IMG/VR virus record: IMGVR_UViG_3300042565_001030
Coordinates: 1-20,418 of that record
DNA: 20,418 nt
Direction: 5' to 3' (one strand)
DNA from: a virus
The position numbers and the translations under genes are program-made. Each line of letters opens with the position of its first letter. Positions within the stretch are counted from its first letter, which is position 1. The notes beneath the pieces were generated by a model. That model worked only from the letters and a program-made list of their open reading frames with translations, was not told the origin of the DNA and did not search any database. This document shows, in pieces, positions 1,794 through 15,441 of the stretch.

Positions 1794-4226
1794 TTATGTT
1801 CCGTAAGCAACTTCCACGGCATCCACAGACGCTACCCACCTCCAAGTTTCAGAGGCGATACCTGTCACAAAAATGCGGAGCGTGTCGTCTGTGTTATTTG
1901 CAGAAAGCGCAATCGTCGTGCCTGCCGCGTTATCGGTTCCGATAGTCACCGGAGCGTAGACCTCGCTGGAGGTGCCTCCCACATTCTTCACGCAATACTG
2001 GCGAAGATAGTGCGCCACCGCAGAACCGTCTGACTTGCTTCCCGTAATATTAATAGTGCAGGCTATGATCTTTCCAGATGGGATGCCGAGATATGTTGTT
2101 GCTCCATCTAGTGCCATCTCGACTCCGGTGTTCGTAGTGGTCTTGCAGCGAAGGACGAAGCGGGCGCGTTGGGCGTCGCCTTCAGCAGAAAAGCGAGGAC
2201 AACCATGTGCAAGCATTCCCCTTCTATTTGCTTCAGCGCCACCAAAGGCAATAGAGGCAGTGCCGCTTGCAATACTATATGCCAAGCCAGAAATTCCACC
2301 AACGGCAAAAGAACTTTGTCCTGTTGCGTATCCTCCAAATCCCATTCCAACAGATTGCGAACCAGAAGCTGAACATTCGCTTCCAACACAAAAAGAGTTA
2401 GCTCCGCTTGCAACTTGTATAGCAGAACCACGAGATATCTGCAAGTCCACCGCATTTGACCCACGCGAATTTCCGCCGCTTGCAGTGCCGTTCGGTTTCG
2501 GCCCAAGAATAAAAGGCCCCGTGCCTTTTGGTGAGAGGACGAGCGCGCTGTTGGTTTGACCAGAGTGCTGGTTCGTGATGGCGACATTGTTCTGGGTGCT
2601 TGTTGTAGCATCATCTATAACGATGTCACTCCCCTGCGCTGTAAACCCGCCTGTGCCATCTGCCCTAGGAATCGCATTATCAACCGTGCCGAGAGTTCCA
2701 CCAATGCCTGTGATGTTTCCTCCAGACACTGTGATGCCAACGGGAGTGAGTTGCTCCATCACGCCTGTTCCCGCTGTGCTGCGACCTACGATGCGGTTGG
2801 TGTCGATACTGGTAGAAATGTCTGGGGTGGCTCCACCAGAGCTAGTTAGCGGAGCGGTAGCGGTGACGGATGTTACGCCAGATGTTGCCGCTGTAGTTTG
2901 AACCGTATTGTCTGAAAACTTGATTCCAGTAGAATCAAGCTTTAATCCTACCGTTGCGTCAGGCGCAGTCCCGATGCCAACCCTTCCTGTGTTGGAAACA
3001 ACAAAAGCAGTTGCATCTGGAGTTGTATCGTCTTCAACCCGTAACGCTTCACCGCTTCCTTCTTGAGTGATTCGCAACGCTGGCAAAGTAGTAAACGCAT
3101 CAGCAGTTATCGTTTGTCTTTGAGTAAAAGTATTTGGTCTATTTGTGTCTGCGACGAATCGGGTTACGCCCGATTGATCTCTATATCGCAGCGATCCATT
3201 CAGCCACAAGTCTCCATTAACTGGTGATGACGGGTCTGTTCCGTGAGGAATATTTAATGGCGCGGATAATGCTGTTGATGCCGGAAGAATCAATTTTCCG
3301 GTCATGGTGTCTCCAGTCCTTGCTACTTTTGAAGAAAGGTCTGTAGTAAGATTTGCTATTTTGCTTTGATCAATCGCTGCGGATGCAGACACATCAGAGT
3401 TTACGATTGTCGTAGCTGGACTTTGGAATACTCCATTGACCACCTTGACCACGCCAGTTCCAGTAACGGATGGCATGGTGCTATGGGTGTGAGAAGGATA
3501 TTGGCCTCCGAAGTGGAATGTAAGACGATTGTTATTCTGATGCGCCCGTCCATATAAGTAAACGACGATTCGATCAGTGGCGAGAATCGTGGTTTGCGGC
3601 ATCACTACAGATGCTACTTGTTGTGTAATTTCAGAAGGATCGTAGATGTATGTGTCGTTAGAAGTCGCAAGCAAAACTGGGGCATTGACGCCATCGTATT
3701 TCAGAATCTCAATCTTGAAATAGACTTGGTTTGCAGAGTTTGTAGTAGTGCTTTCGACAAAAATATTGAAGTCCCAGATTCCAGCAGGGATTGCTGTGGC
3801 TGATGGGACATTCAGATCAGTTACAAACGAGGCGAGGAAGTCATAGCTCGCTGTAGAGAGGATGGGGGAGAGGTAACTGGTTGCGGTAACATCTGCAATG
3901 ATTCCGAGTTCCTTTGAGGCATTCGGAGTTTGCGGGATGTTTGTCAGTGGGGCGTCTGCTGCCGTGTTGAAGTTGAGATAATAAACAACTCCACCACCAC
4001 CAGACCCTCCCGACGGGATACTGCCCGGAACCCAGTTTGCTCCATCATATTGTAGAACTTGTCCGTTGACTGGGGTTGCATTGCTGACTGGCCTACCCTG
4101 TAAACCATCAACTGTCGGGTTTGGGTATGTCCCAGAAAGATCACCACCAGCAGGCCCAGTTGGCGATCCGCCCCCTGCTCCAGTTATATCAAGTTTTCCA
4201 GTAAACGGATTAAATTTCCAGCCCAT
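1794..4226 (-). CDS. Tail fibre protein with trimeric-adhesin-like head repeats
   Basis: An 810-aa fibre-type protein. The N-terminus carries the widespread phage fibre module GDLSGTYPNPTVDGLQ (about residues 28-43) followed by NGQVLQYDGANWVPG. The middle has DLWLNGSLRYRD, a VSNTGRVGIGTAPD repeat element and KFSDNTVQTTAA, all common in fibres. Around residues 590-660, repeated AxGxxSxAxG-type units (SGSQSVGMGFGGYATGQSSF) resemble the YadA-like head of trimeric autotransporters. A beta-rich C-terminal domain follows (ARFVLRCKTTTNTGVEMAL). Host-surface adsorption is the likely role. A weak relative of the dispersed palindrome lies at 1930-1945. The gene starts 2 bases after the preceding stop. 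Confidence 0.88.
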   Translation of the reverse strand: MGWKFNPFTGKLDITGAGGGSPTGPAGGDLSGTYPNPTVDGLQGRPVSNATPVNGQVLQYDGANWVPGSIPSGGSGGGGVVYYLNFNTAADAPLTNIPQTPNASKELGIIADVTATSYLSPILSTASYDFLASFVTDLNVPSATAIPAGIWDFNIFVESTTTNSANQVYFKIEILKYDGVNAPVLLATSNDTYIYDPSEITQQVASVVMPQTTILATDRIVVYLYGRAHQNNNRLTFHFGGQYPSHTHSTMPSVTGTGVVKVVNGVFQSPATTIVNSDVSASAAIDQSKIANLTTDLSSKVARTGDTMTGKLILPASTALSAPLNIPHGTDPSSPVNGDLWLNGSLRYRDQSGVTRFVADTNRPNTFTQRQTITADAFTTLPALRITQEGSGEALRVEDDTTPDATAFVVSNTGRVGIGTAPDATVGLKLDSTGIKFSDNTVQTTAATSGVTSVTATAPLTSSGGATPDISTSIDTNRIVGRSTAGTGVMEQLTPVGITVSGGNITGIGGTLGTVDNAIPRADGTGGFTAQGSDIVIDDATTSTQNNVAITNQHSGQTNSALVLSPKGTGPFILGPKPNGTASGGNSRGSNAVDLQISRGSAIQVASGANSFCVGSECSASGSQSVGMGFGGYATGQSSFAVGGISGLAYSIASGTASIAFGGAEANRRGMLAHGCPRFSAEGDAQRARFVLRCKTTTNTGVEMALDGATTYLGIPSGKIIACTINITGSKSDGSAVAHYLRQYCVKNVGGTSSEVYAPVTIGTDNAAGTTIALSANNTDDTLRIFVTGIASETWRWVASVDAVEVAYGT

Positions 4227-5579: not shown

Positions 5580-6986
5580 TTAGGGAGCCACGATGTCGCC
5601 CACCCCTTCGCAGGAGTAGCAGTCGGGCGAGGTGTTGCACGGCGTGTAGGTGTTCAGTTCGCAGCAGGAGCCGTAGAGGTTACGGGCTTTCGGCATACGA
5701 TGCAGGAACACGTGGATGAGGGTCGGGTCTTTGACCTGAGCCGCGAGGCGGAACTGGGCTTGGTAGAAGCCCGATTTGCGCCAGCGGTTGCACTCCCAAT
5801 CCGGGTTCTTCCACTCCCAGTCCCCAGCGTAGTTCTGGGTCATCTGCTGGGCTTGGCCGTATCCCGTGGAGGAAGGCATCGTCCACTTGACCATCGCGTT
5901 GTTGACGATAGCGGCAGAGATCGCAAAGTCTGCGTTCTGGTAGTCGCGGTTCGGAACATACGCGCAGCCGTTCTCGAGATTCGTCTTGACGTAGCGGGGA
6001 ACGCGGATGAGGCGTGGCCATGTCGAAGAGTCGCTCGCATTGAAGGCGGGCAGGGTGGCGTTGAAGGCAGTGTCGGCGTTGAAGCGGACGCTGTTGATGT
6101 CGTAGCCGAATGCGTAGTCACCGATGATGCGGTTGACACCCAACTTGAGGCTCGTAAGGCGAGAATCGAAGTCGGTGTTGGCATCCCAGTAACCATTGTT
6201 GCGCTTGGCTTGGAAGTAGAGTCCGCGACCAACGCGGGGATCGGGGATAACGATGTCGAGGAGCGGCATCCCGGTTGCCTCGGAGAGGTCAAGGCGGAAG
6301 GCATCGTCTTCGTTCTGGAGTTCGACCAGAGCGTCATCCAGCATATCCAGCGACAGGTATGCGATCTTGTTGAGGTCGGCAACGGCAACCTTGACGCGCA
6401 CGGCGCAGAGGTCGTAGCCAGACTCGTTGTTGGTGGTGTGTTCGGGAATGAACCAAGACTGGTCGTCGAGGAGTCCGCAGTAGACACCATCGTCGTTCAC
6501 AACGCCGAGCCACTTGTGGCCAGCGCCGCCGATGTAGTTGGCGCGGAGGAACTCTTCGTGGACGTTCTTGGTGATGCGGGCATTCGACTCCTCGAACTGG
6601 AGAATCTCTTCAGCGGGGAAGAGGCGATAGAGAAGGCTCTCCACGCAAATCCAGTCGGTGGTCATTTCCTTGCGGAGAAGCTCGAAAGTGTAGCTCTCGG
6701 TGCCGGGGCGTTCGATGACCTCGGGCTTGCTGTCGCAGGAGTCCGTGTTGCAGTAGGTGTCAACGATCTTGCGGAACGGGGTGCAGGGATCGTAGAAGCC
6801 GCGACCGAAGCGGAAGGCTTTCTGCTCGGTGGTATGGTTAAGCGGCCAAGGTTGCTCGTCAAAGCGAGTGAAATACGTCGAGTTGGTGACGAGCTTCTTC
6901 ACATAGAGATCGTTGAAGTATTCACGACCTTCGCGGAAAAAGCTGTCAATCTCGGCGCACGAATTGAAATAGAGCTGTTCGCCCAT
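5580..6986 (-). CDS. Probable major capsid protein
   Basis: A 468-aa protein called by position: it follows portal and scaffold, has its own promoter-like site and long leader, and precedes small head/tail genes. Its length fits HK97-fold capsid proteins with insertions. Helical ELLRKEMTTDWICVESLLYRL and later LAYLSLDMLDDALVELQNEDD-type regions (approximate wording of residues 220-245) would fit the spine helix and P-domain, but I cannot confirm the fold. It is unusually cysteine-rich, ending in SCCELNTYTPCNTSPDCYSC (residues about 440-460), which suggests disulfides or metal binding. The ATG follows an SD-less, CAA/ACC-rich leader (CCAAAATCAATACTATG). Confidence 0.68.
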   Translation of the reverse strand: MGEQLYFNSCAEIDSFFREGREYFNDLYVKKLVTNSTYFTRFDEQPWPLNHTTEQKAFRFGRGFYDPCTPFRKIVDTYCNTDSCDSKPEVIERPGTESYTFELLRKEMTTDWICVESLLYRLFPAEEILQFEESNARITKNVHEEFLRANYIGGAGHKWLGVVNDDGVYCGLLDDQSWFIPEHTTNNESGYDLCAVRVKVAVADLNKIAYLSLDMLDDALVELQNEDDAFRLDLSEATGMPLLDIVIPDPRVGRGLYFQAKRNNGYWDANTDFDSRLTSLKLGVNRIIGDYAFGYDINSVRFNADTAFNATLPAFNASDSSTWPRLIRVPRYVKTNLENGCAYVPNRDYQNADFAISAAIVNNAMVKWTMPSSTGYGQAQQMTQNYAGDWEWKNPDWECNRWRKSGFYQAQFRLAAQVKDPTLIHVFLHRMPKARNLYGSCCELNTYTPCNTSPDCYSCEGVGDIVAP

Positions 6987-7307: not shown

Positions 7308-8606
7308 CTATGCGTTCACAAGAGTGCGGCCGGATGGCGAGAACTTCGCCAGCTTTGCCGCCAGTCCTTCGGTGATAGTCACCCGGCGTTGCTGAGACTC
7401 GTTCACCTTCGGGGTGCTGTCCACACGCGAGGCACCCTTGAGCGATTTGATGTAGGAGTCTTTCTCCTTCACCATCTCTTGGAGTGCTTTGACCTGTGCC
7501 TGCAATTTCTTGTAGGCGCGACCTTGGTTGATGAGTCGGTTCATTTCGTCCACTGATGCTTCATCGTTGGACTGCTGGGTGGCTGAAAGTGCAATGGCGT
7601 CATCGCGGCTGGTGTCGAATGTGATGCCTTTCTCTTTCATGTAGGTTTGGATGTCTTCGGAGATGCTGATCTCGTTTTCGACTTCCTCTGCCTGCTTCTT
7701 GTAGGAGTCGCGCCATGTGTTGATGAACTGGCTGCGGGCTTCCTGTGCTTTGCGCTTGGCTTGGGCTTCGATATCCTGCTTGGTCTGGGTGTGGTTGATC
7801 AATGCCTGCGCGTGTTGGACTGTGCTGTCCAGATAGTCTTTGATGGCATCCGCGAACCGGACTTGCTTGAATGTTCCCAAGCTATTGGTGATCTCTTCAA
7901 ATGCCTCGTCCCTGTCGCGCATTGCCGCCGCACGATCCTCTTCGGTCGAGTGGTTGAATATGGATGCGTTTGCGTTGATCGCCCGCTGGAACATATTCAG
8001 CAGTGTATTATCGTTGCCGATAATCTGCCGGGCTGCGTTGTAGCTCTTTTGGATCGGTTCCACGAATTGCTTCTGGAAGTCGGGGTTCGTGGTCAGGTCA
8101 TGGAAGTCGAGCTTGCTGCGGAGTTCTTGGATTTCCTTTGATAGGTTTTGCTCCAATTCAACCTTCTCCTCGTTGGCTTTATTAAGCTGTGATTGGTAGT
8201 GGTTGGCTTCCGCCGTGGTTTCGCTGTTCTGGACGAGCTTCTCCAACTCCGCGATCTTGCCCTCGTATTTCGGAATCTCGTCCTTCTTGAACTTCTCCAA
8301 CTCCTCCTTGAGGCGGCGGTTCTCCTCAATCTGCTTCTGGACAAAGCCACCCTTTTTGACGTTCAAGTCCTTTTTGGGTTCCTCGGCGTTATCGTTAACG
8401 ATAATCTCTTCCGCAGGCTCTTCCTCTTGAACCTTGGGCATACCAAGCGTGGGATCGCCAACATTGGTTCCACTTGGCTTCCCGTCATCAGCCTGCTGTT
8501 TGCTGAACTTCTTGAGGAAGTCAGTCGTGTTTCCCTTGATGGGGATTTGTGGTTTGCTCTGGAGGTCTTTGATGATCTCCGCTGTTTCGTTGTTGGTGTC
8601 GCTCAT
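7308..8606 (-). CDS. Scaffold-like coiled-coil protein
   Basis: A 432-aa, charged, helix-rich protein between portal and capsid genes, the usual place of a capsid-assembly scaffold. It has an acidic/proline N-terminal region to about residue 75, a strong coiled coil at about 90-165 (KQIEENRRLKEELEKFKKDE...LEKLVQNS), more helices, and a basic C-terminal end (QQRRVTITEGLAAKLAKFS) of the kind scaffolds use to bind capsid protein. Two copies of the 16-bp palindrome lie inside the gene and encode IIVNDN (around residue 70) and IIGNDN (around residue 197), both outside clear coiled-coil cores. The start is coupled to the 81-aa gene by ATGA, and a terminator follows the stop. Confidence 0.78.
   Translation of the reverse strand: MSDTNNETAEIIKDLQSKPQIPIKGNTTDFLKKFSKQQADDGKPSGTNVGDPTLGMPKVQEEEPAEEIIVNDNAEEPKKDLNVKKGGFVQKQIEENRRLKEELEKFKKDEIPKYEGKIAELEKLVQNSETTAEANHYQSQLNKANEEKVELEQNLSKEIQELRSKLDFHDLTTNPDFQKQFVEPIQKSYNAARQIIGNDNTLLNMFQRAINANASIFNHSTEEDRAAAMRDRDEAFEEITNSLGTFKQVRFADAIKDYLDSTVQHAQALINHTQTKQDIEAQAKRKAQEARSQFINTWRDSYKKQAEEVENEISISEDIQTYMKEKGITFDTSRDDAIALSATQQSNDEASVDEMNRLINQGRAYKKLQAQVKALQEMVKEKDSYIKSLKGASRVDSTPKVNESQQRRVTITEGLAAKLAKFSPSGRTLVNA
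8008..8023. repeat. 16-bp dispersed palindrome, copy 2 (14/16)
   Basis: TTATCGTTGCCGATAA inside the scaffold gene; two central changes from the consensus. Confidence 0.6.
8389..8404. repeat. 16-bp dispersed palindrome, copy 3 (perfect)
   Basis: TTATCGTTAACGATAA, 16/16, inside the low-complexity acidic N-terminal region of the scaffold gene, where it encodes IVND(N). Confidence 0.9.
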
Positions 8607-8848
8607 ATATCTTGTAGGTCGGGATCGCTAATGGGTTCTTCCTGCTCTTGGGTGGAAGGCTTTTTGCCTTTCTTGAATGGCTGGGTGGGTGTGTCTTCGC
8701 CAATCGAATTGATGCGGTTGAGTGCATCCCGGATTGTGTCTATCCCGCTGGATGGCTGGACAGTCATCAGTAGGTAGGTTTGCAGCGCATTCCAATCGTC
8801 ATGGTTGGCGATGGACGCACATAGGCTTTTTACTTTGTCTGTGTTCAT
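8603..8848 (-). CDS. Small hypothetical protein between portal and scaffold
   Basis: An 81-aa protein (MNTDKVKSLCASIANHDDW...). The first 50 residues look helical; the rest is charged and disordered (KKGKKPSTQEQEEPISDPDL). Not recognised. Both ends are coupled: its ATG overlaps the portal stop and its stop overlaps the scaffold ATG, each as ATGA. That argues for a real gene translated with the head-assembly genes. It may be a head-assembly cofactor, by position only. Confidence 0.65.
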   Translation of the reverse strand: MNTDKVKSLCASIANHDDWNALQTYLLMTVQPSSGIDTIRDALNRINSIGEDTPTQPFKKGKKPSTQEQEEPISDPDLQDI

Positions 8849-11355
8849 GTGGTTTGCGGCGGGGCGGGTTGGGTAGCTTCTTCCTCAACTCCCTTCATCT
8901 CTTCAATTTCCTCTGGCTCCTCGACCTCTACCTCTTCAGTCTCCTCTTCCTCTTCCATCTCTGGTTCTTCCTCTTCTTCCATCTCTGGAACTTCGGGAGC
9001 CTCTTGCATGGGTTTTGCCTTTGCCATGGTCTTCTGGATTTCGGCGCGGGCTTTGGCTTTCTGGAGCGCAAGCTGGGTGATACCCTGCTGCTTGCGTTGC
9101 TCGGTGCGCTGGGCGTGGCTGATCGATGCCTTGCCAACTGCGATATCCGCGAGCTTCTGTTTGGTGTCGATTTCGATGCCGGACTTGGCGGCGAGGTATT
9201 GGAGTTTGATGTCTTCCTCTGTGCTGGGCTTGCCCTGCTGGCTCTGTGCCATTTCTTGGTAGACCGCAGAAATCTCGTCGCCCATCTTGCCTGCTTGGTT
9301 CATTCCGTCCATGAACTGCTGTAGGAAATCTTTCTTGGTTGGGTCTTTGGAGATGTATTCGACGTGCGCCATGATGTGGCCGCCCTTGAACTGGATTGAG
9401 CGCACAACCTTGGCGAGTTCGTTGAGTTCCGCAGCACCCATCTGGATCGCCTGCATATTGGTCTGAATCTGCATCATCAAGTCTTGGAAGTGACCTGTGA
9501 CGTGTTCGATATGCGGGTCGGTTGGCAGGACAGGGAAGTTCGCAGGGTTGACGAATACATCTGTCATGCCAGCATTCTCGAAACCGATGATCCTGTTGGT
9601 GTCATCGATCTTGCTCATCTTGAACTCGCGGTAGCGGGCTACGTTGTCCCGCCCTGCCAAAGCTGCGATGGCGTCCTTAATGGCATTTTCTTGTCCTTCG
9701 TTGGCTGGTGTGATCGAAGTAAGTTGAACAAGTTTCTCCGCAGCGATGAGCTTGAAGGATGGGCTTCCTGCTCCGTTGATGAGGTTGCTTCGGATTGAGG
9801 TGATGTTCTTAAAGGCAGCAGCCTCCTTCGGAGTTCCAAGTTCCTCCAGAATCTCATAGAATTTTCTGACATATTCGTATCCTTCATCGTTTCGTGTGGA
9901 TGAAACAAAGCGCCTGTATAGCTCGCGGAAGTAGAGCGTTTCGCACTCGTTGAATCGGCGGATTTGGGTGCCGCTCAGTTTGGCTGATTCCGCTGCATCA
10001 AGCTCCGCTTCGCCCTTGGTGCGCTGGACGCCGCCGCTTGTCGGTGCGTTGATGCGGTATTGACCCAGACCGCGATAAAGGTCGCCCATGTAGAACTGCA
10101 TGAATGCCATGCCTTCTTGGACTGGGAGCGTGAATCGGTTCTGCGTGAACTTGGCTCCGTCCGGCATGACGCTGATCGGGAGCCACTCCATCTGCTTGAG
10201 CATCTTGGTGGAGTCCGGTGATCCGCCGTCCAAGAGGAGCATGGAGTTGAGGCGAACGGCGTCCACAAGCCCGTTCATCGTGAAGTCATACTGGCGGCAG
10301 GCTACGAACGCAGCTTCCGCTTGGGACTTGATGTCGTGGAATAGTCCGCTACCCACGGAGTCCGTGAGCATATAGAGGATTTGGTCCCAAGATTCAAAAA
10401 GACCGACGTTAAGCTGGAGGAATCCATGCTGGTCCCGAACAACATCTTCGGAGATGCGGTCTTTGCCTTTGACGAAGCTGTTGATGTGTTGGCTGATCGG
10501 GTTGTAGTCTTGGAGGATGACTGCCTTGCTGATCGTGCCGTCGAATTCCCTCCAGTAGATTTCGTAGAGGTCGATCTTTTGGTTGACCGAGAGCGACCAG
10601 TTGAATCCGCTTTCGCTGATTGTGCGGAAGAAGTCTTCGCGGGTTTTGTTGTGTTCTGAAAAAGCCTTGTGGAATCTAATGGCGTCCACGACTGCATCAA
10701 CATTCCACCCAAGGTCTTCGGCGGCTGATCGGTTTTCGATGACTTTGTAGAGTTGATACGGGGTGAGTCGAACTCGCCGCACAAACTCCTCCAGATTAGA
10801 GAGATCAACCTTGATATCGTCTGGAAAGAGAAGGTCGGAGAGAGGAACGGCCTCAGGCATCCATCCGAGGGGGCTGTGCCACATCCCGATGCCTTTTCCG
10901 TAGAGCAGCATCGATTCAAGGTCTTGCTCTTTGTTGTAAAGGTATCCGGGCCATTCGCGGATCGCTTGATCGAACGCTTTTGTGATGTTTTCCGAGTGGA
11001 CGAGTCTTTCTTTTTCATTGCCGAACTTGGTATCGATTTGAGCGCAGGCTTGCCTTTCGGTGATAACATCATAGTAGGAACTCTTCTGGTTGTTGACGAT
11101 GAACTCCATCTGGCCCCAGTTCACATCGGCTTGCCAAGGCAACTTCTTCTCTGCCAGTTTGCTATAACCAGTAGGAGGGAAGCGTTTGTATGATTTGTAA
11201 ATTCGGATGCGTTTGTTCTCCCGCCCCACATTGCTAAGGGATAGGTTATTTGCGATGTTCCAAGCATGATTTGCTGAAACAATTCGTGTTGCGGGAACCG
11301 CCCCGTCTGGTCCGAGGGTTGCGAGGCTAAAGTTGTCTGAGCCGACAGTAATCAT
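8845..11355 (-). CDS. Portal protein
   Basis: An 836-aa protein, long for a portal but in the range of podovirus/P22-like types. The call rests on size, position before scaffold and capsid, and on segments typical of portals: a YKSYKRFPPTGYSKLAEKKL start region, an E/D-rich helical middle (QAIREWPGYLYNKEQDLESM; LLYGKGIGMWHSP), YQLYKVIENRSAAEDLGW, a MQFYMGDLYRGLGQYRINAP block and a long helical stem/barrel around residues 620-760 rich in Q, A and K. The extreme C-terminus is very acidic (EMEEEEEPEMEEEEETEE). It forms the ring through which DNA is packaged, partnering the terminase. It starts 2 bases after the 125-aa gene. Confidence 0.8.
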   Translation of the reverse strand: MITVGSDNFSLATLGPDGAVPATRIVSANHAWNIANNLSLSNVGRENKRIRIYKSYKRFPPTGYSKLAEKKLPWQADVNWGQMEFIVNNQKSSYYDVITERQACAQIDTKFGNEKERLVHSENITKAFDQAIREWPGYLYNKEQDLESMLLYGKGIGMWHSPLGWMPEAVPLSDLLFPDDIKVDLSNLEEFVRRVRLTPYQLYKVIENRSAAEDLGWNVDAVVDAIRFHKAFSEHNKTREDFFRTISESGFNWSLSVNQKIDLYEIYWREFDGTISKAVILQDYNPISQHINSFVKGKDRISEDVVRDQHGFLQLNVGLFESWDQILYMLTDSVGSGLFHDIKSQAEAAFVACRQYDFTMNGLVDAVRLNSMLLLDGGSPDSTKMLKQMEWLPISVMPDGAKFTQNRFTLPVQEGMAFMQFYMGDLYRGLGQYRINAPTSGGVQRTKGEAELDAAESAKLSGTQIRRFNECETLYFRELYRRFVSSTRNDEGYEYVRKFYEILEELGTPKEAAAFKNITSIRSNLINGAGSPSFKLIAAEKLVQLTSITPANEGQENAIKDAIAALAGRDNVARYREFKMSKIDDTNRIIGFENAGMTDVFVNPANFPVLPTDPHIEHVTGHFQDLMMQIQTNMQAIQMGAAELNELAKVVRSIQFKGGHIMAHVEYISKDPTKKDFLQQFMDGMNQAGKMGDEISAVYQEMAQSQQGKPSTEEDIKLQYLAAKSGIEIDTKQKLADIAVGKASISHAQRTEQRKQQGITQLALQKAKARAEIQKTMAKAKPMQEAPEVPEMEEEEEPEMEEEEETEEVEVEEPEEIEEMKGVEEEATQPAPPQTT

Positions 11356-11357
11356 AG

Positions 11358-11735
11358 TTATTTGTTGAAGAGGTTGTTTAGTGCTTGTCTGCGCTGCCTA
11401 CAAGAACTACAACCTTTGGCTCGACTTTCAAGGTTTGTTTTGAATACTTTGTCCACAGCCCTCGCGGCGGTGTGGATTGCAATCGCTACATGGTCGCCTG
11501 CCCCGCTCCAACACCTGTCTGCTGGCTGGCGTTCGCAAATCTGGTCTTCGACAATTTGTGCCAAGTCTACTGGCACATCAACTCCGTTTGACCTCATGTC
11601 TTTTGTGATATTCTCAATGAGTTTGTTCAAGGATTCCCCATAGACTGTGGCTGGGAAGTCATTTTTGAAGCGATGTATCGTGTAACGATACCACCAGCCG
11701 CCTACCGGAGCGCGTCGAGGTTCTTTAAGTTTCAT
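11358..11735 (-). CDS. Small CxxC protein, first gene of the structural operon
   Basis: A 125-aa protein beginning MKLKEPRRAPVGGWWYRY and ending in a CSSCRQRRQALNNLF motif (residues about 108-122). From memory, a CxxCxxRRxxLN tail recurs in small phage proteins of unknown function near packaging genes. Not assignable further. It is the first gene behind a good promoter (11751-11778) and is followed by portal after 2 bases. It also contains a D/C-rich central region (EDQICERQPADRCWSG). A role at the head/packaging stage is a contextual guess; a small terminase subunit is possible but unsupported. Confidence 0.62.
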   Translation of the reverse strand: MKLKEPRRAPVGGWWYRYTIHRFKNDFPATVYGESLNKLIENITKDMRSNGVDVPVDLAQIVEDQICERQPADRCWSGAGDHVAIAIHTAARAVDKVFKTNLESRAKGCSSCRQRRQALNNLFNK

Positions 11736-11750
11736 CTTGCCTTGCGCGGA

Positions 11751-11778
11751 AAGATAGGTTTTGATCTTTGCGTGTCAA
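11751..11778 (-). promoter_or_regulatory. Promoter of the minus-strand structural operon
   Basis: Minus strand: -35 TTGACA (11778-11773), 16-bp spacer, -10 TATCTT (11756-11751), about 16 bases before the first ATG (11735), with AAGG upstream of that start. It lies in the divergent gap between structural genes and terminase. Confidence 0.65.
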
Positions 11779-11813
11779 GAAAAATTGTTTCTCAAGGTAT
11801 TCGGAAATACGGG

Positions 11814-14579
11814 ATGGTTTTCCCGGACAACATGAACCCGCTGGAGATTGAGCTTTTCTGCTACGCAATCACCCGTGGAAGCTACGGCAAGACCTACTGC
11901 GTAAAGAACAATATTGAGCTTGGGGACTTCAAGTTGCTCAGTCCCTACGAACACTTCATCCAAGCGGTCCAGTATATGTGGCCCACCGATGTTGTCATCA
12001 AGAACAGGGGCTATACAAACACCCAATTGTTGAGGACGCTGGAGGAACTCTGCAACAATGACGATGTGGTTCTCGCTGGCGCGGCTTCGATGGGAAAGTC
12101 GTTTCCTGTTGGACTGTGGGTTTACTTGGACTGGTGTGCCGCCCCGCACTGCACATCCGCGTGGGTAGCGACTACTACACTTGGCGCGTCCGAGGACCGT
12201 ATCTGGGGTATCATCTCGAAACTCTGGAAGTGTGCGTCAAACCAGATCGGAAACCTTGTGGACTATCGGCATATGATTGTGTGGGGTGGTGCGTCCGGTG
12301 ATGATGAGAAGGACTACCGGAATGCGATCAAGGCTATTGCGTTCCCGCCGGGGTCCGAGGGCCAGAAGGCAATTGATACCACCCGTGGGCGCAAAAACGA
12401 TAGGATTCGCGTAGCCTTGGACGAGTTGCCCGAAATGGAGATGGGCGCGATCAATATCAGGCAAAACCTTTCTTCCAACGATGACAAGGTTTTCATTGGT
12501 ATCGGAAACCCGAGCGCGGGGGACAATCCCCATACAAGGTGGGCGATGCCAAAGGGGCATACCAACTTCGATTCGGTCAATGCCGACATGGACAAATGGG
12601 AGACGGAGACTGGGGTTTGTTTGTTCTACAATGGATGCAAGTCCCCGAACTTTGCCGCCCCGCCGGATGAGCCTTCACCATTCCCGTTCCTTATGGACCG
12701 CAGGAAGCAGGCGGACATCCTTAAAATGTCCTACGGGGACGAGAACTCCGTGGACTATGTTCGCAACGCCATTGGCTGGTGGCCCAAGTCCGGGTTTGCC
12801 CAAACAGTCCTTACTGCCGACGTCATCCGAAATGCCGATACTTTTACGGAGCCGATCTGGGACTACAATGAGATTGTTCGCATTGCGGGATTTGATACCG
12901 CTTTCACGGCCGGCGGGGACAGGTGTGTGCTGACGATCTGTAAACTTGGCTATGTCCGTGGCACTTCACAGAAGGTGATGTATCTGATGAATCAAGAAGT
13001 GATCCAGATTGCTGCTGGTGTAGCCGCAGAGTTTGATGTTCAAGTTGCAGCAAAGGTGGTTGACCTGTGCAGGAGGTATGAGGTGAAGCCGTCGAAGTTT
13101 GGCATGGATGTGAGTGGTGATGGCGGGCGGGTCGGGCAGGCTATCATGCGCGAATGGATGCGGCATGACAAGGATGGGTCTTCTATCGCCCTTATTTCCT
13201 CTATGGGTCGCCCGACTGATCGTATCGCCGCCGATGTGGACAAGCGTCCATGCAATGAGGTCTATGATCGCTTGATATCTGAATACTGGTATTCTGCATT
13301 CCATGGATTCAAGGCACGGGTGATTTATGGTGTGGAACCATCTGGCGAGCTTGGGCGGGAATTGTGCCTGCGCAGGTATCGCTTAAAGAATAAGAAGATT
13401 TCTGTAGAGACGAAGGATGACTACAAAGGCAGGACGGGATTCTCGCCCGATTGCTTTGTAGAAGGAACTTTAATTCTGACACCAAATGGAAATGTAAAGA
13501 TTGAAGACTTACGAGTCGGAGATGATGTTGTTACTCCATTTGGTATTACAAAAATTGCATTTATCCACGATGAAATTCATAACGAAATTTGTAAGGTTGA
13601 GTTTAATGATGGTCGAGTTCTTGAGGGAAAAGGAAAGCATAGGGTTTTTACTTGGGAAGATGGATGGGTTAGACTTGACAAGCTCTCCAGCGCATATACA
13701 ATAGAGTCTGAAGAAAGACTAATTGTATGGAACATTCTAAATTCATTATTCACAATAAATCCAAATATCGCATTCAAACATCTGGTAGATATTATCAAAA
13801 CGAAAACAGGAATGCGTCAGAGAGACTTTTACACAGAGTTATATGGGTTGAAAACAATGGAGACATTCCTGATGGTCTTGAAATCCATCACATCAATGGT
13901 GATTGGACTGATAACAGAATTGAAAATCTTACCCTTCTTACGAAGAAAGATCATATGCGGCTACACATGCAAGAGAGATTCAAAGACAAGCACTATTATG
14001 CAAAAAATCTGGAGTCTCTTAAGTTGGCTCAAGAAGCTGCAAAAAGGTGGCACTCTTCAGAAGAGGGAAGAAAGTGGCATAGTCAACATGCATACAATAG
14101 TATTCTCAAACGAGAAAAGCATGAGGGAAGTTGCAGGCATTGCGGGAAGCCCGTCATTACTCAAAACAAAAGCAAATCCAAGTATTGTAGTGGGGCGTGC
14201 TTTCAGTCGGCTAATAGGGAAAAATACAAAACAAAAACTTATAGATGCGTGGAATGCGGCAAAGATTTTAATGGCAACACTTATCGTAAGAGGATTTGCT
14301 GCTCCAAGCGTTGTGCGATCATCAAAAGAAACAAGGGTCGCGCGGGTATTAAACTTGGTCCTCGAAAACCAAAATGTGTATTATGCTAATGGAGTCTTGG
14401 TAGATAATTGCGCCGACTCATTCCTCTATAGCTTGGAAATGGCGCGGAGAAACGGACTCGTTTTTATCGGTAACGATAAACCTGTCCCTACTGATCGGTT
14501 CTGGGCGAGGCGCGAGAAGGAAGTCTCTGTCATGTCGGACGATGATTACTATATGTCCGATGATGATGGGGAGGATTGA
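11814..14579 (+). CDS. terL: Terminase large subunit, intein-containing precursor
   Basis: ATP-driven DNA-packaging motor and nuclease. The precursor is 921 aa; removing the 319-aa intein leaves 602 aa, a normal size. Walker A is GAASMGKS (about residues 89-96) and Walker B RVALDE (199-204). The RNase H-like nuclease acidic residues are in AGFDTAF (D361), FGMDVSGDGG (D432) and the split motif SPD|CADSF (D546). The intein starts at C547 immediately after SPD, and splicing would restore SPDCADSFLYSLEMARRNG. A longer reading frame from 11673 would overlap the divergent 125-aa gene, so I use the ATG at 11814, preceded by GGAAATACGGG. It is the only plus-strand gene in the packaging/structural half. 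A palindrome copy lies in the C-extein. Confidence 0.88.
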   Translation: MVFPDNMNPLEIELFCYAITRGSYGKTYCVKNNIELGDFKLLSPYEHFIQAVQYMWPTDVVIKNRGYTNTQLLRTLEELCNNDDVVLAGAASMGKSFPVGLWVYLDWCAAPHCTSAWVATTTLGASEDRIWGIISKLWKCASNQIGNLVDYRHMIVWGGASGDDEKDYRNAIKAIAFPPGSEGQKAIDTTRGRKNDRIRVALDELPEMEMGAINIRQNLSSNDDKVFIGIGNPSAGDNPHTRWAMPKGHTNFDSVNADMDKWETETGVCLFYNGCKSPNFAAPPDEPSPFPFLMDRRKQADILKMSYGDENSVDYVRNAIGWWPKSGFAQTVLTADVIRNADTFTEPIWDYNEIVRIAGFDTAFTAGGDRCVLTICKLGYVRGTSQKVMYLMNQEVIQIAAGVAAEFDVQVAAKVVDLCRRYEVKPSKFGMDVSGDGGRVGQAIMREWMRHDKDGSSIALISSMGRPTDRIAADVDKRPCNEVYDRLISEYWYSAFHGFKARVIYGVEPSGELGRELCLRRYRLKNKKISVETKDDYKGRTGFSPDCFVEGTLILTPNGNVKIEDLRVGDDVVTPFGITKIAFIHDEIHNEICKVEFNDGRVLEGKGKHRVFTWEDGWVRLDKLSSAYTIESEERLIVWNILNSLFTINPNIAFKHLVDIIKTKTGMRQRDFYTELYGLKTMETFLMVLKSITSMVIGLITELKILPFLRRKIICGYTCKRDSKTSTIMQKIWSLLSWLKKLQKGGTLQKREESGIVNMHTIVFSNEKSMREVAGIAGSPSLLKTKANPSIVVGRAFSRLIGKNTKQKLIDAWNAAKILMATLIVRGFAAPSVVRSSKETRVARVLNLVLENQNVYYANGVLVDNCADSFLYSLEMARRNGLVFIGNDKPVPTDRFWARREKEVSVMSDDDYYMSDDDGED
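13452..14408 (+). mobile_element. Intein in the terminase nuclease motif
   Basis: A 319-codon in-frame insertion. The N-terminal splicing block starts at C1 (CFVEGTLILTPNG, then VKIEDLRVGDDVVTPFG), block B is GKGKHRVFTW with its histidine, and the C-terminal blocks are VLNLVLENQNVYYANGVLVDN followed by Cys+1 of the extein. The last residue is Asn as required; the usual penultimate His is Asp. Splicing-domain parts total roughly 125 aa, mini-intein size; about 190 codons between them coincide with an HNH gene in another frame. The region is visibly AT-richer than the exteins, which points to recent acquisition. A protein-splicing element is strongly supported; splicing activity is inferred. 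Confidence 0.88.
13727..14389 (+). CDS. HNH homing endonuclease overprinted within the intein
   Basis: A 220-aa protein in a frame different from the terminase/intein frame. The HNH core is HRVIWVENNGDIPDG followed by LEIHHINGDWTDNRIENLTL and KDHMRLH (about residues 36-80), the classical phage HNH layout. Two zinc-finger-like cysteine clusters follow (CRHCGKP...KYCSGAC and CVECGKD...CCSKRC). It has its own ATG with a purine-rich AAGAAAG upstream and its own TAA, which overlaps the intein's C-terminal splicing block. It probably nicks or cuts intein-less terminase alleles to drive homing. The unusual point is the out-of-frame location; in known bifunctional inteins the nuclease is normally fused in frame. 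Confidence 0.82.
   Translation: MEHSKFIIHNKSKYRIQTSGRYYQNENRNASERLLHRVIWVENNGDIPDGLEIHHINGDWTDNRIENLTLLTKKDHMRLHMQERFKDKHYYAKNLESLKLAQEAAKRWHSSEEGRKWHSQHAYNSILKREKHEGSCRHCGKPVITQNKSKSKYCSGACFQSANREKYKTKTYRCVECGKDFNGNTYRKRICCSKRCAIIKRNKGRAGIKLGPRKPKCVLC
14464..14479. repeat. 16-bp dispersed palindrome, copy 4 (15/16)
   Basis: TTATCGGTAACGATAA in the terminase C-extein tail, encoding FIGNDK; one change at position 7. Confidence 0.75.
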
Positions 14580-14596
14580 ATTGTCGTTGGCGATAG

Positions 14597-14812
14597 CTAT
14601 TCCAACTCGCCTTGCAATTCCATGAGGTTTGCCAATTCTTCGCTGAGTGTGATCTTGCAGTAGTTCCCGCCCTCGGGGGTCTTCAGCCCGATTGTTAGAT
14701 TCTTGATGTCGCTGCGCTTGATCCAGCAGTCCACCCAGTCTTGGCGGAATCTGATCTTCTGTGGGTTCTCGTCTGCTATGACGCCTTCGCAAGTGATGAG
14801 TGATTTGAACAT
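14597..14812 (-). CDS. Small hypothetical protein
   Basis: A 71-aa protein starting MFKSLITCEGVIADENPQK. A longer frame from 14890 exists, but the ATG at 14812 gives a more natural N-terminus and a smaller overlap (37 bases) with the HNH gene. Alternating polar and hydrophobic residues (IRFRQDWVDCWIKRSD; LTIGLKTPEGGNYCKITL) suggest a small beta-rich domain. Not recognised. It ends 17 bases from the convergent terminase stop. Part of the minus-strand trio with HNH nuclease and XRE regulator, probably co-transcribed. Confidence 0.5.
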   Translation of the reverse strand: MFKSLITCEGVIADENPQKIRFRQDWVDCWIKRSDIKNLTIGLKTPEGGNYCKITLSEELANLMELQGELE

Positions 14813-15126
14813 TGGAATTCGTAGATTAGGTAGCCTTTTTCCCGCGCCCAGCCGGGGTTGTTGTGGCATCGATGGTGGCAGGGCCTGCATAAAGCCATGA
14901 AAGTATGCTTCTTTGTGGTGTTACTGCCACGGCCCCTTTTATGGTGTATGTCCGTTGCTTGCCCCCCACATATTTCGCAGCGGTAGTTTTTTTCTTCAAG
15001 GTATTCTTTCCTGACTTTGCCGTATTCTTCATTCAACTTCCTCCTGCGCTTGCTGACGGGGTTGAGCCTGCCTCCTCTTTTCTTGAATCCGGTTCTCGCT
15101 TTGAGCGGGGTTTTTCGTTTGAGCAT
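14776..15126 (-). CDS. HNH-type nuclease
   Basis: A 116-aa protein with a basic N-terminus (MLKRKTPLKARTGFKKRGGR) and an HNH core: CEIC (C50/C53), ATDIHHKRGRG with the catalytic His pair at 61-62, ALCRPCHHRCHNN (C80, C83, H84, H88) and GWAREKGYL. The two CxxC pairs would hold a structural zinc. Small phage nucleases of this type act in recombination, DNA processing or packaging; it is a stand-alone HNH, not obviously related to the intein nuclease. Its first 94 bases overlap the end of the XRE-type regulator gene in a different frame, and its end overlaps the next small gene. Confidence 0.75.
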   Translation of the reverse strand: MLKRKTPLKARTGFKKRGGRLNPVSKRRRKLNEEYGKVRKEYLEEKNYRCEICGGQATDIHHKRGRGSNTTKKHTFMALCRPCHHRCHNNPGWAREKGYLIYEFQCSNHSSLAKAS

Positions 15127-15368
15127 AGTTCGAGAATCTTGATGATGTGGTCGGCTTTGAGGACGCTGCGGCAGTTGGTTTCGACTTGGTTGATCAGGCT
15201 CCCTGTCACCCCGATCTTCTCCCCAAGCTGGCGGACAGTCAATCCGAGTTTGCTCCTCGTCTCCCGAAGCGACAAGCCGAACATCCTCCGCGCACTATTC
15301 TTGATTGCCTTGCTCTGCTCCATTGCGGAGATATAGTTGTGGTATGCCACTTCCAGCGGATGATTCAT
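15033..15368 (-). CDS. XRE-family helix-turn-helix regulator
   Basis: A 111-aa DNA-binding protein. The HTH domain is at about residues 35-80: LRETRSKLGLTVRQLGEKIG, then VTGSLINQVETN with the recognition helix, then ILEL. This is the lambda-repressor/XRE fold. The C-terminal tail (KPRSKREPDSRKEEAGS) is charged and lies in the part overlapping the HNH gene. Possible starts are TTG at 15401, ATG 15389, ATG 15368 and ATG 15320; I use 15368, uncertainly. It is divergent from the 128-aa gene, and the shared gap carries TTGAC-AA-GTCAA, a possible operator. It is also the only visible candidate regulator for the dispersed 16-bp palindrome, which is speculative. Confidence 0.72.
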   Translation of the reverse strand: MNHPLEVAYHNYISAMEQSKAIKNSARRMFGLSLRETRSKLGLTVRQLGEKIGVTGSLINQVETNCRSVLKADHIIKILELCSNEKPRSKREPDSRKEEAGSTPSASAGGS

Positions 15369-15394
15369 TTGGGTGGCAAGTCTATACATTATTG

Positions 15395-15441
15395 TTGACA
15401 AGTCAAGAGTATTTTTGTTATCGGAAGCGTTAATGGATAAC
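15395..15441. promoter_or_regulatory. Divergent control region with inverted repeats
   Basis: On the plus strand TTGACA (15395-15400) is followed by only weak -10 candidates 15-17 bases downstream. The same bases form TTGAC-AA-GTCAA (15395-15406), giving TTGACT on the minus strand, with TATAGA 14 bases away. A second inverted repeat GTTATC...GATAAC (15417-15422, 15436-15441) brackets the SD and start codon of the plus-strand gene. This would suit autoregulation by the adjacent XRE protein. Confidence 0.4.

Follow-up and report, generated by a model that had tools for sequence, protein, structure and literature searches.

The viral record IMGVR_UViG_3300042565_001030, analysed here over its full 20,418 bases (the window), contains a gene, probably that of a phage large terminase, which carries an intein whose DNA is read in a second frame. 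We posit, with a probability of roughly 0.85, that this element is a mobile intein with a homing endonuclease gene of the HNH type, which is overprinted on the linker joining the splicing halves, in the −1 frame, and expressed by internal initiation. Both frames and their conservation, an empty insertion site with clustered flanking changes, and a second clade in which the endonuclease occupies the other frame can be read directly from the sequences. The parts of the gene are as follows, with handles beginning in L denoting loci or contigs of the comparison.

11814-13451, + strand: N-terminal extein of a putative divergent terminase large subunit (phrog_2 matches in relatives; empty homologue L018).
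13452-13685, + strand: N-terminal splicing segment of the intein, with Cys1 at 13452 and the block-B His63 (Hint_2, E = 4.5e-9; N-end profile match).
13727-14389, + strand: HNH endonuclease open reading frame (ORF), 220 amino acids, −1 relative to the intein, with an ATG start and a TAA stop at 14387-14389 (HNH_3, E = 1.5e-18).
13728-14345, + strand: double-coded linker, the intein frame through the HNH gene, open, its protein not conserved (judged from shuffles, model confidence and substitutions).
14346-14408, + strand: C-terminal splicing segment of the intein, blocks F and G, with an Asp-Asn end; the same DNA encodes the tail and stop of the HNH protein (C-end profile match).
14409-14579, + strand: C-terminal extein, first residue Cys+1 (Leu, CTT, at that place in the empty homologue L018).

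The host frame is free of stops from an ATG at 11673 to 14579, with the start taken as 11814, and the intein fills 319 codons of it (13452-14408), open throughout, beginning with Cys, ending with Asn and followed by Cys. A sequence-only reading of the window had described an open frame at 11814-14579 with splicing blocks flanking a 319-codon insertion and, out of frame at 13727-14389, an HNH gene with its own ATG and a TAA in the last splicing block; the coordinates proved exact, and the TAA lies in block F (YYANG), where it is composed of the last base of the Ala codon and the first two of the Asn codon. The residues of a Cys1-type intein (C1, H63, N319 and C+1) are present in the window; C1, T28 and H63 are invariant in the intein structure alignment, which holds 42 of 88 inteins, Cys1 is found in all 88 scored relatives, and the +1 residue is Cys in 76 and Ser in 8 of the 84 scored. 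An AlphaFold model of the intein frame is confident at residues 1-90 and 291-319 (predicted local distance difference test score, pLDDT, about 90-98, with 92-96 over 291-319) and falls below 70 over most of residues 101-290. The confident ends match the intein folds of MchDnaB-1 (E = 3.1e-6) and gp41-1 (E = 6.7e-6), and the gp41-1 intein is also the best PDB sequence match; we are confident that the two ends, as modeled, form a Hint fold.

This layout is not peculiar to the window. Seven close viral contigs (L011-L017, 72-74% identical over the best segment; two pairs are near-copies, leaving five distinct inteins) carry the same gene and intein. Dissimilar terminases with this double reading house more distant HNH relatives (34-42% identical), and the layout is also present in records of Rhodobacteraceae phage LS06-2018-MD07, Tetrasphaera phage TJE1 and Acinetobacter phage Highwayman (L008-L010, L043-L045 and L049 are among the loci concerned); because the close contigs and the named phage records share the layout, a read-level indel in the window is unlikely. 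Viral and prokaryote contigs were scanned with an alignment of 12 overprinted and one free-standing HNH, and 80 of 374 and 80 of 87 relatives, respectively, were used. Together with the loci described above, 179 of 209 sequences have an HNH match, a count that includes the window, its copy L001 and contigs present twice (L002-L007 overlap L011-L017). Both intein ends were recognised in 114 of the 179 by profiles seeded from eight overprinted inteins, which can miss the ends of others (the C end of L058 was seen by eye and missed by profile); since the seeds were mostly overprinted, the shares of the classes are not unbiased frequencies. One continuous open frame, +1 to the HNH, joins the two ends in 102 of these 114 loci, and 12 are not continuous; in none is the HNH in frame with both intein ends. 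Three of the 12 (L118, L119 and L135) also have both ends in the +1 frame, so that, of the 105 loci whose splicing blocks both lie in that frame, 102 are open through the HNH gene. Stops in the intein frame of relatives, within the HNH region, were among the things that the sequence-only reading had named as refuting its proposal; both the intein and the HNH frames are open in all seven close contigs, and the intein frame is open in all but three of the 105 loci.

The 102 overprinted loci contain 92 distinct HNH sequences, or 89 after removal at ≥90% nucleotide identity, and these 89 dereplicated loci comprise 56 from viral contigs, 28 from genome bins (including the archaeal L138 and L146; bins can hold stray viral contigs), four from phage records and the window. 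In twelve further loci the N end lies in the +1 frame, which is open through the HNH, and the C end was not recognised; the 13 loci in which the N end alone was recognised and the +1 frame is open, including L189, whose weak N match lies in the HNH frame, were not counted as overprinted.

Within the window, synonymous shuffling that keeps the HNH protein and its codon usage fixed leads to an expectation of 4.84 stops in the intein frame; none is seen and none of 500 shuffles was open, which puts chance at about 1% or less for this locus alone and takes the place of the sequence-only estimate of (61/64)^220, too simple a null. The accompanying suggestion of selection on both frames holds for the openness of the intein frame and can be refined, since the two are not under equal selection: to judge from substitutions, the HNH protein is constrained and the intein frame is merely kept free of stops. 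As averages over the 15 pairs of six close sequences, differences per site at HNH codon positions 1, 2 and 3 are 0.148, 0.091 and 0.255, and those in the N part of the intein, by intein codon position, are 0.075, 0.025 and 0.267; the third position of the HNH, which changes at about the rate of third positions in that N part, is the second position of the intein frame, so that the amino acids of the intein frame seem unconstrained where the two genes overlap. A functional domain in the overlapped part of the intein frame was considered and rejected, given its low pLDDT and the lack of visible amino-acid constraint.

The same data bear on whether the HNH gene could be a relic in an element of which only the intein matters. 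Decay does happen: L053 and L153 carry stops well inside the HNH match, which points to endonuclease decay of the kind that the homing cycle predicts, and the HNH of L052 ends 33 nucleotides early, with the intein frame intact in all three. Against a general relic stand the constraint on HNH positions 1 and 2 in the close family and the invariance of the HNH-motif and Cys residues in the 69 genes aligned out of 72 usable ones (L081, L108 and L168 omitted), albeit in a set filtered for intact frames, and we consider the explanation very improbable. The model of the HNH frame has a mean pLDDT of 91.9.

How the HNH protein would be made is suggested by its start. The start codon is ATG in 81 of 86 genes with a called start, and a Shine-Dalgarno (SD)-like match of at least 5 nucleotides precedes 27 of the 86, compared with 6% of 874 internal control ATGs. 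In 88 of 89 loci, a stop located downstream of intein residue 1 closes the HNH frame. These sequence features make internal initiation the more likely route. Programmed −1 frameshifting from the host frame, which would produce an HNH protein fused to the N half of the intein, is compatible with the −1 position of the HNH in the large class, but in-phase slippery heptamers between the point where the HNH frame opens and the HNH start occur in 3 of 89 loci, against 9 of 89 in a control span, and the HNH of the second clade, described below, lies in the other frame; with the ATG starts and their SD enrichment also opposed to it, frameshifting is very improbable. At its other end, the HNH stop falls inside the intein C block in 70 of 87 relatives, 31 times at offset 5, nearly all there at Tyr/Phe-Asp/Asn codons, and 17 times at offset 17, mostly at Val-Glu or Val-Asp. 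The endonuclease thus borrows its stop codon from the intein, and this may help to explain the predominance of the −1 frame.

Summed over the 89 dereplicated genes, synonymous shuffles give an expectation of 201 stops, and none is present, and the median gene would be open with a probability of 0.038. Since openness defines this class, the independent points are the 102 of 105 loci recognised by their splicing blocks and the control groups. Nineteen free-standing relatives (matches of >380 nucleotides without an open covering frame; 16 short ones were excluded by length and no long one by frame) have 144 stops against 142 expected, and none of the 19 is open; a third group, 19 relatives with pieces of an intein and no covering frame, has 132 against 127. 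Codons for Leu, Ile or Val that make a stop before a codon beginning with A or G are used at none of 1093 places in overprinted genes, compared with 123 of 275 in free-standing genes and 120 of 264 in the third group. A Met followed by a codon starting with A, which cannot be avoided by synonymous change at the Met itself, is found at 0 of 151, 21 of 55 and 13 of 45 places, respectively.

The second clade uses the opposite arrangement. In 21 contigs, not dereplicated (L209-L229, L209 being the contig of L124), the intein frame is +2 to the HNH; these read as terminase genes, and L124, L214, L218 and L227 match phrog_2 at E = 1e-36 or better. Their +2 frame has no stops where 7.7-12.2 are expected per gene and none of 200 shuffles is open, whereas their +1 frame has 7-12. 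The N-block profile matches 20 of the 21, the remaining contig beginning inside the HNH gene; the C-end profile matched none of the 21, and the C end was found by the typed motif VVSHNC or IVSHNC in 15, with a similar end visible by eye in L227. L170 is a further +2 terminase. L182 (1531-3210) is a single case of +2 overprinting outside the terminases, its host gene belonging to phrog_24776 (of unknown function; minor-head-like by eye).

Could a free HNH gene simply have come to lie in a mini-intein whose frame is open through composition or through the amino-acid bias of the HNH protein? Shuffled overprinted genes expect only 2.26 stops per gene, compared with 7.5 in the free-standing relatives, and their guanine-plus-cytosine (GC) content is higher (0.443 versus 0.390, and 0.417 in the third group), so that openness lies partly in protein and composition; moreover, L135, a noncontinuous locus and 1 of the 19 in the third group, is also open in the HNH stretch. 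The higher GC explains a part of the openness at most. Nearly all loci with both blocks in frame are open, at so low a median probability, and no free-standing gene is. Different clades that keep opposite frames open, one of them with the expected stops in +1, cannot be explained by composition, and we regard the chance of such a coincidence as next to negligible. On the strength of these comparisons, the openness of the intein frame is under selection.

A PDB profile search with the HNH found I-HmuI (1u3e) as its sole match (E = 5.9e-4), and phage introns often encode HNH enzymes of this type, but a group I or II intron with the HNH inside it, excised at the RNA level and only secondarily similar to an intein, is scarcely credible in view of the conserved intein residues at both ends, the frame kept open, and an Rfam scan of the window without a gathering-level match and without an intron-type match at E up to 1 in 13300-14600.

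We take the host gene to be a divergent large terminase because of the phrog_2 matches of its relatives, not because of the window extein itself: 8 of 13 family members of that extein match phrog_2 (TerL; best E = 7.9e-7). In the wider comparison, 60 of 83 N-exteins scanned match one terminase PHROG. The window's own match to a terminase PHROG sits on the intein part (residues 538-761) and not on the extein. The terminase family phrog_30251 matches intein residues 1-215; because this match reaches deep into the double-coded part, its members probably include such a reading. The host protein has, by eye, a Walker-like motif, GAASMGKS. In L037 (4001-6847), an 89% close relative of the host gene, a different in-frame insertion, intein-like, lies at the Walker-A-like GAASMGK|C (by eye), and there is no insertion at the site of the window's intein.

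Several features suggest that the element moves. L018 is the same gene without the intein (602 amino acids), 98.0% identical in nucleotides upstream and 96.9% downstream, and its differences cluster at the junction (1 and 4 nucleotides upstream; 0, 1, 2 and 5 downstream; the next at 79 and 158), a pattern that either a short tract of co-conversion or adaptation to Cys+1 would leave. The element is sporadic, with empty sites in L018 and in other intein-free relatives, and its GC content is 36-39%, compared with 53% in the N-extein. The ends of a 132-amino-acid mini-intein (L051, 1193-3139) and of an intein with an overprinted HNH (L072, 3645-4679) are nearly identical, so that the HNH module is not needed for the intein at that site. 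In L055 (2046-4258), a free-standing HNH comes directly after an uninterrupted terminase; the closest relative of this HNH on the tree is the overprinted L053, and it may home to the same site. On an unrooted tree with 139 HNH proteins, 99 rows bear the +1 label (loci with a recognised N end only included), which requires 20 changes, at least five of them forced by starred branches, against a mean of 34.7 in shuffled labels; the label is therefore clustered and has changed several times. The window falls in a starred set of five, all overprinted. As the tree is unrooted and 63 of its 135 inner branches are weak, gain and loss are not separable, and whether the overprinted layout precedes fractured inteins is not settled by it.

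Several observations weigh against the reading that we prefer. The window extein matches none of the PHROG and Pfam terminase models, its profile resembles those of seven other exteins weakly (probability 27, over the last 68 columns, ending at the shared SPD motif), and a PDB search with it gave only two weak hits, neither a terminase (E = 0.014). The penultimate intein residue is Asp and not the usual His (HN in 48 and DN in 5 of the 84 scored), although a penultimate His is not obligatory for inteins, and Pfam Intein_splicing matches the window at E = 0.012, below the cut-off of that model. I-HmuI is the first Foldseek match of the HNH model, yet only at E = 0.11, and the window's own HNH start is preceded by an SD-like match of only 3 nucleotides. 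Finally, the extein of the close contig L013 contains a stop well upstream of the intein, and the flanking changes in L018 may in part be adaptation to Cys+1.

We infer splicing, internal initiation, cleavage and homing from the sequence, and the cycle could run as follows. The intein sits in SPD|xADS, a nuclease motif, of the putative large terminase. Ribosomes coming from the terminase start would read through the intein frame to yield a 921-amino-acid precursor, in which the N- and C-terminal Hint halves would fold together with the linker of about 200 residues looped out, and splicing would release a terminase of 602 residues. Other ribosomes would begin at the internal ATG at 13727 and produce the 220-amino-acid HNH enzyme, its stop supplied by the intein's own C-terminal block; the enzyme would cut intein-free terminase genes, and repair would then copy in the element as a whole. 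Because a stop in the intein frame would cost the phage an essential protein, such stops would be purged, the frame being otherwise free.

If so, two proteins encoded by a single stretch of DNA share out splicing and homing between them and are tied to each other by the reading frame. The 89 dereplicated loci in one frame and the 21 contigs in the other would form a natural set for measuring what overprinting costs a gene, and the layout suggests a way, open to test, in which natural split inteins might arise. Endonucleases of this sort can be overlooked in gene annotation: the records of TJE1, Highwayman and LS06-2018-MD07 have the terminase as the sole annotated feature at this place.

The surroundings of the gene hold another small HNH endonuclease, encoded a short way downstream of the terminase (14776-15126, − strand, 116 amino acids; phrog_740, E = 1.8e-9) and, beside it, a likely transcriptional regulator (15033-15401; phrog_8, E = 1e-8). 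The − strand ORFs at 8845-11355, 7308-8606, 5580-6986 and 1794-4226 have no PHROG match at E = 1e-4; with four long ORFs of this kind, the phage is far from well-described ones.

The element shares features with each of several known systems. In bifunctional inteins the endonuclease lies in frame between the splicing halves; here, too, splicing halves flank an endonuclease in the middle, but the nuclease is read in another frame as a separate protein. Dassa (2009) reportedly described fractured genes and split inteins with a free homing endonuclease gene (HEG) as a separate ORF between the intein halves, a layout visible in our noncontinuous loci L066 and L132 (and, by eye, L058), where IntN, HNH and IntC are separate ORFs. 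The window resembles these in that the HEG is a separate ORF between intein halves and differs in that the halves belong to one continuous frame that runs through it; as the host ORF is uninterrupted from 11673 to 14579, the gene is not fractured, and the sequence-only reading was right to place it with neither kind. I-HmuI, the likeness of which was found by profile, is encoded in an intron, whereas the HNH of the window sits in an intein.

A parallel in form is the element of ShiLan, for which the accessible text of PMC11855218 describes an out-of-frame HNH in an open insertion, proposed to home; according to the same text, the insert has no splicing motifs and is predicted to stay in a dispensable methylase. 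The two are alike in that an HNH in an alternative frame lies inside an insertion that leaves the host frame open, with a host-frame product predicted at poor confidence. In contrast to the ShiLan element as that text presents it, the insert of the window has the conserved splicing blocks of an intein and lies in a probable terminase, and 89 dereplicated loci share the layout. Among the top-ranked papers of full-text searches, in a collection that lacks most subscription journals, none describes an endonuclease out of frame within an intein, and prior cases may be contained in a preprint on actinobacteriophage inteins with "non-canonical architecture" (10.1101/2025.01.02.630785), which is cited in the accessible text of PMC11855218.

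The sequence-only reading had offered the arrangement as an intermediate or a new class; it has turned out to be a large class, joined by a second clade in the opposite frame, and not a single intermediate. We would give even odds to a broader proposal, namely, that overprinted inteins (i) are a third standing architecture beside the bifunctional and the fractured, (ii) are the commonest one among phage terminase inteins with this HNH family and occur also in bacterial and archaeal bins, (iii) have been reached at least twice, in opposite frames, and (iv) are the usual start from which nonsense mutation and reinitiation yield fractured split inteins. Compared as sequences, the element of the window corresponds in full to neither the bifunctional intein, nor the fractured gene, nor the ShiLan insertion, and is probably best described as an intein with an overprinted homing gene.

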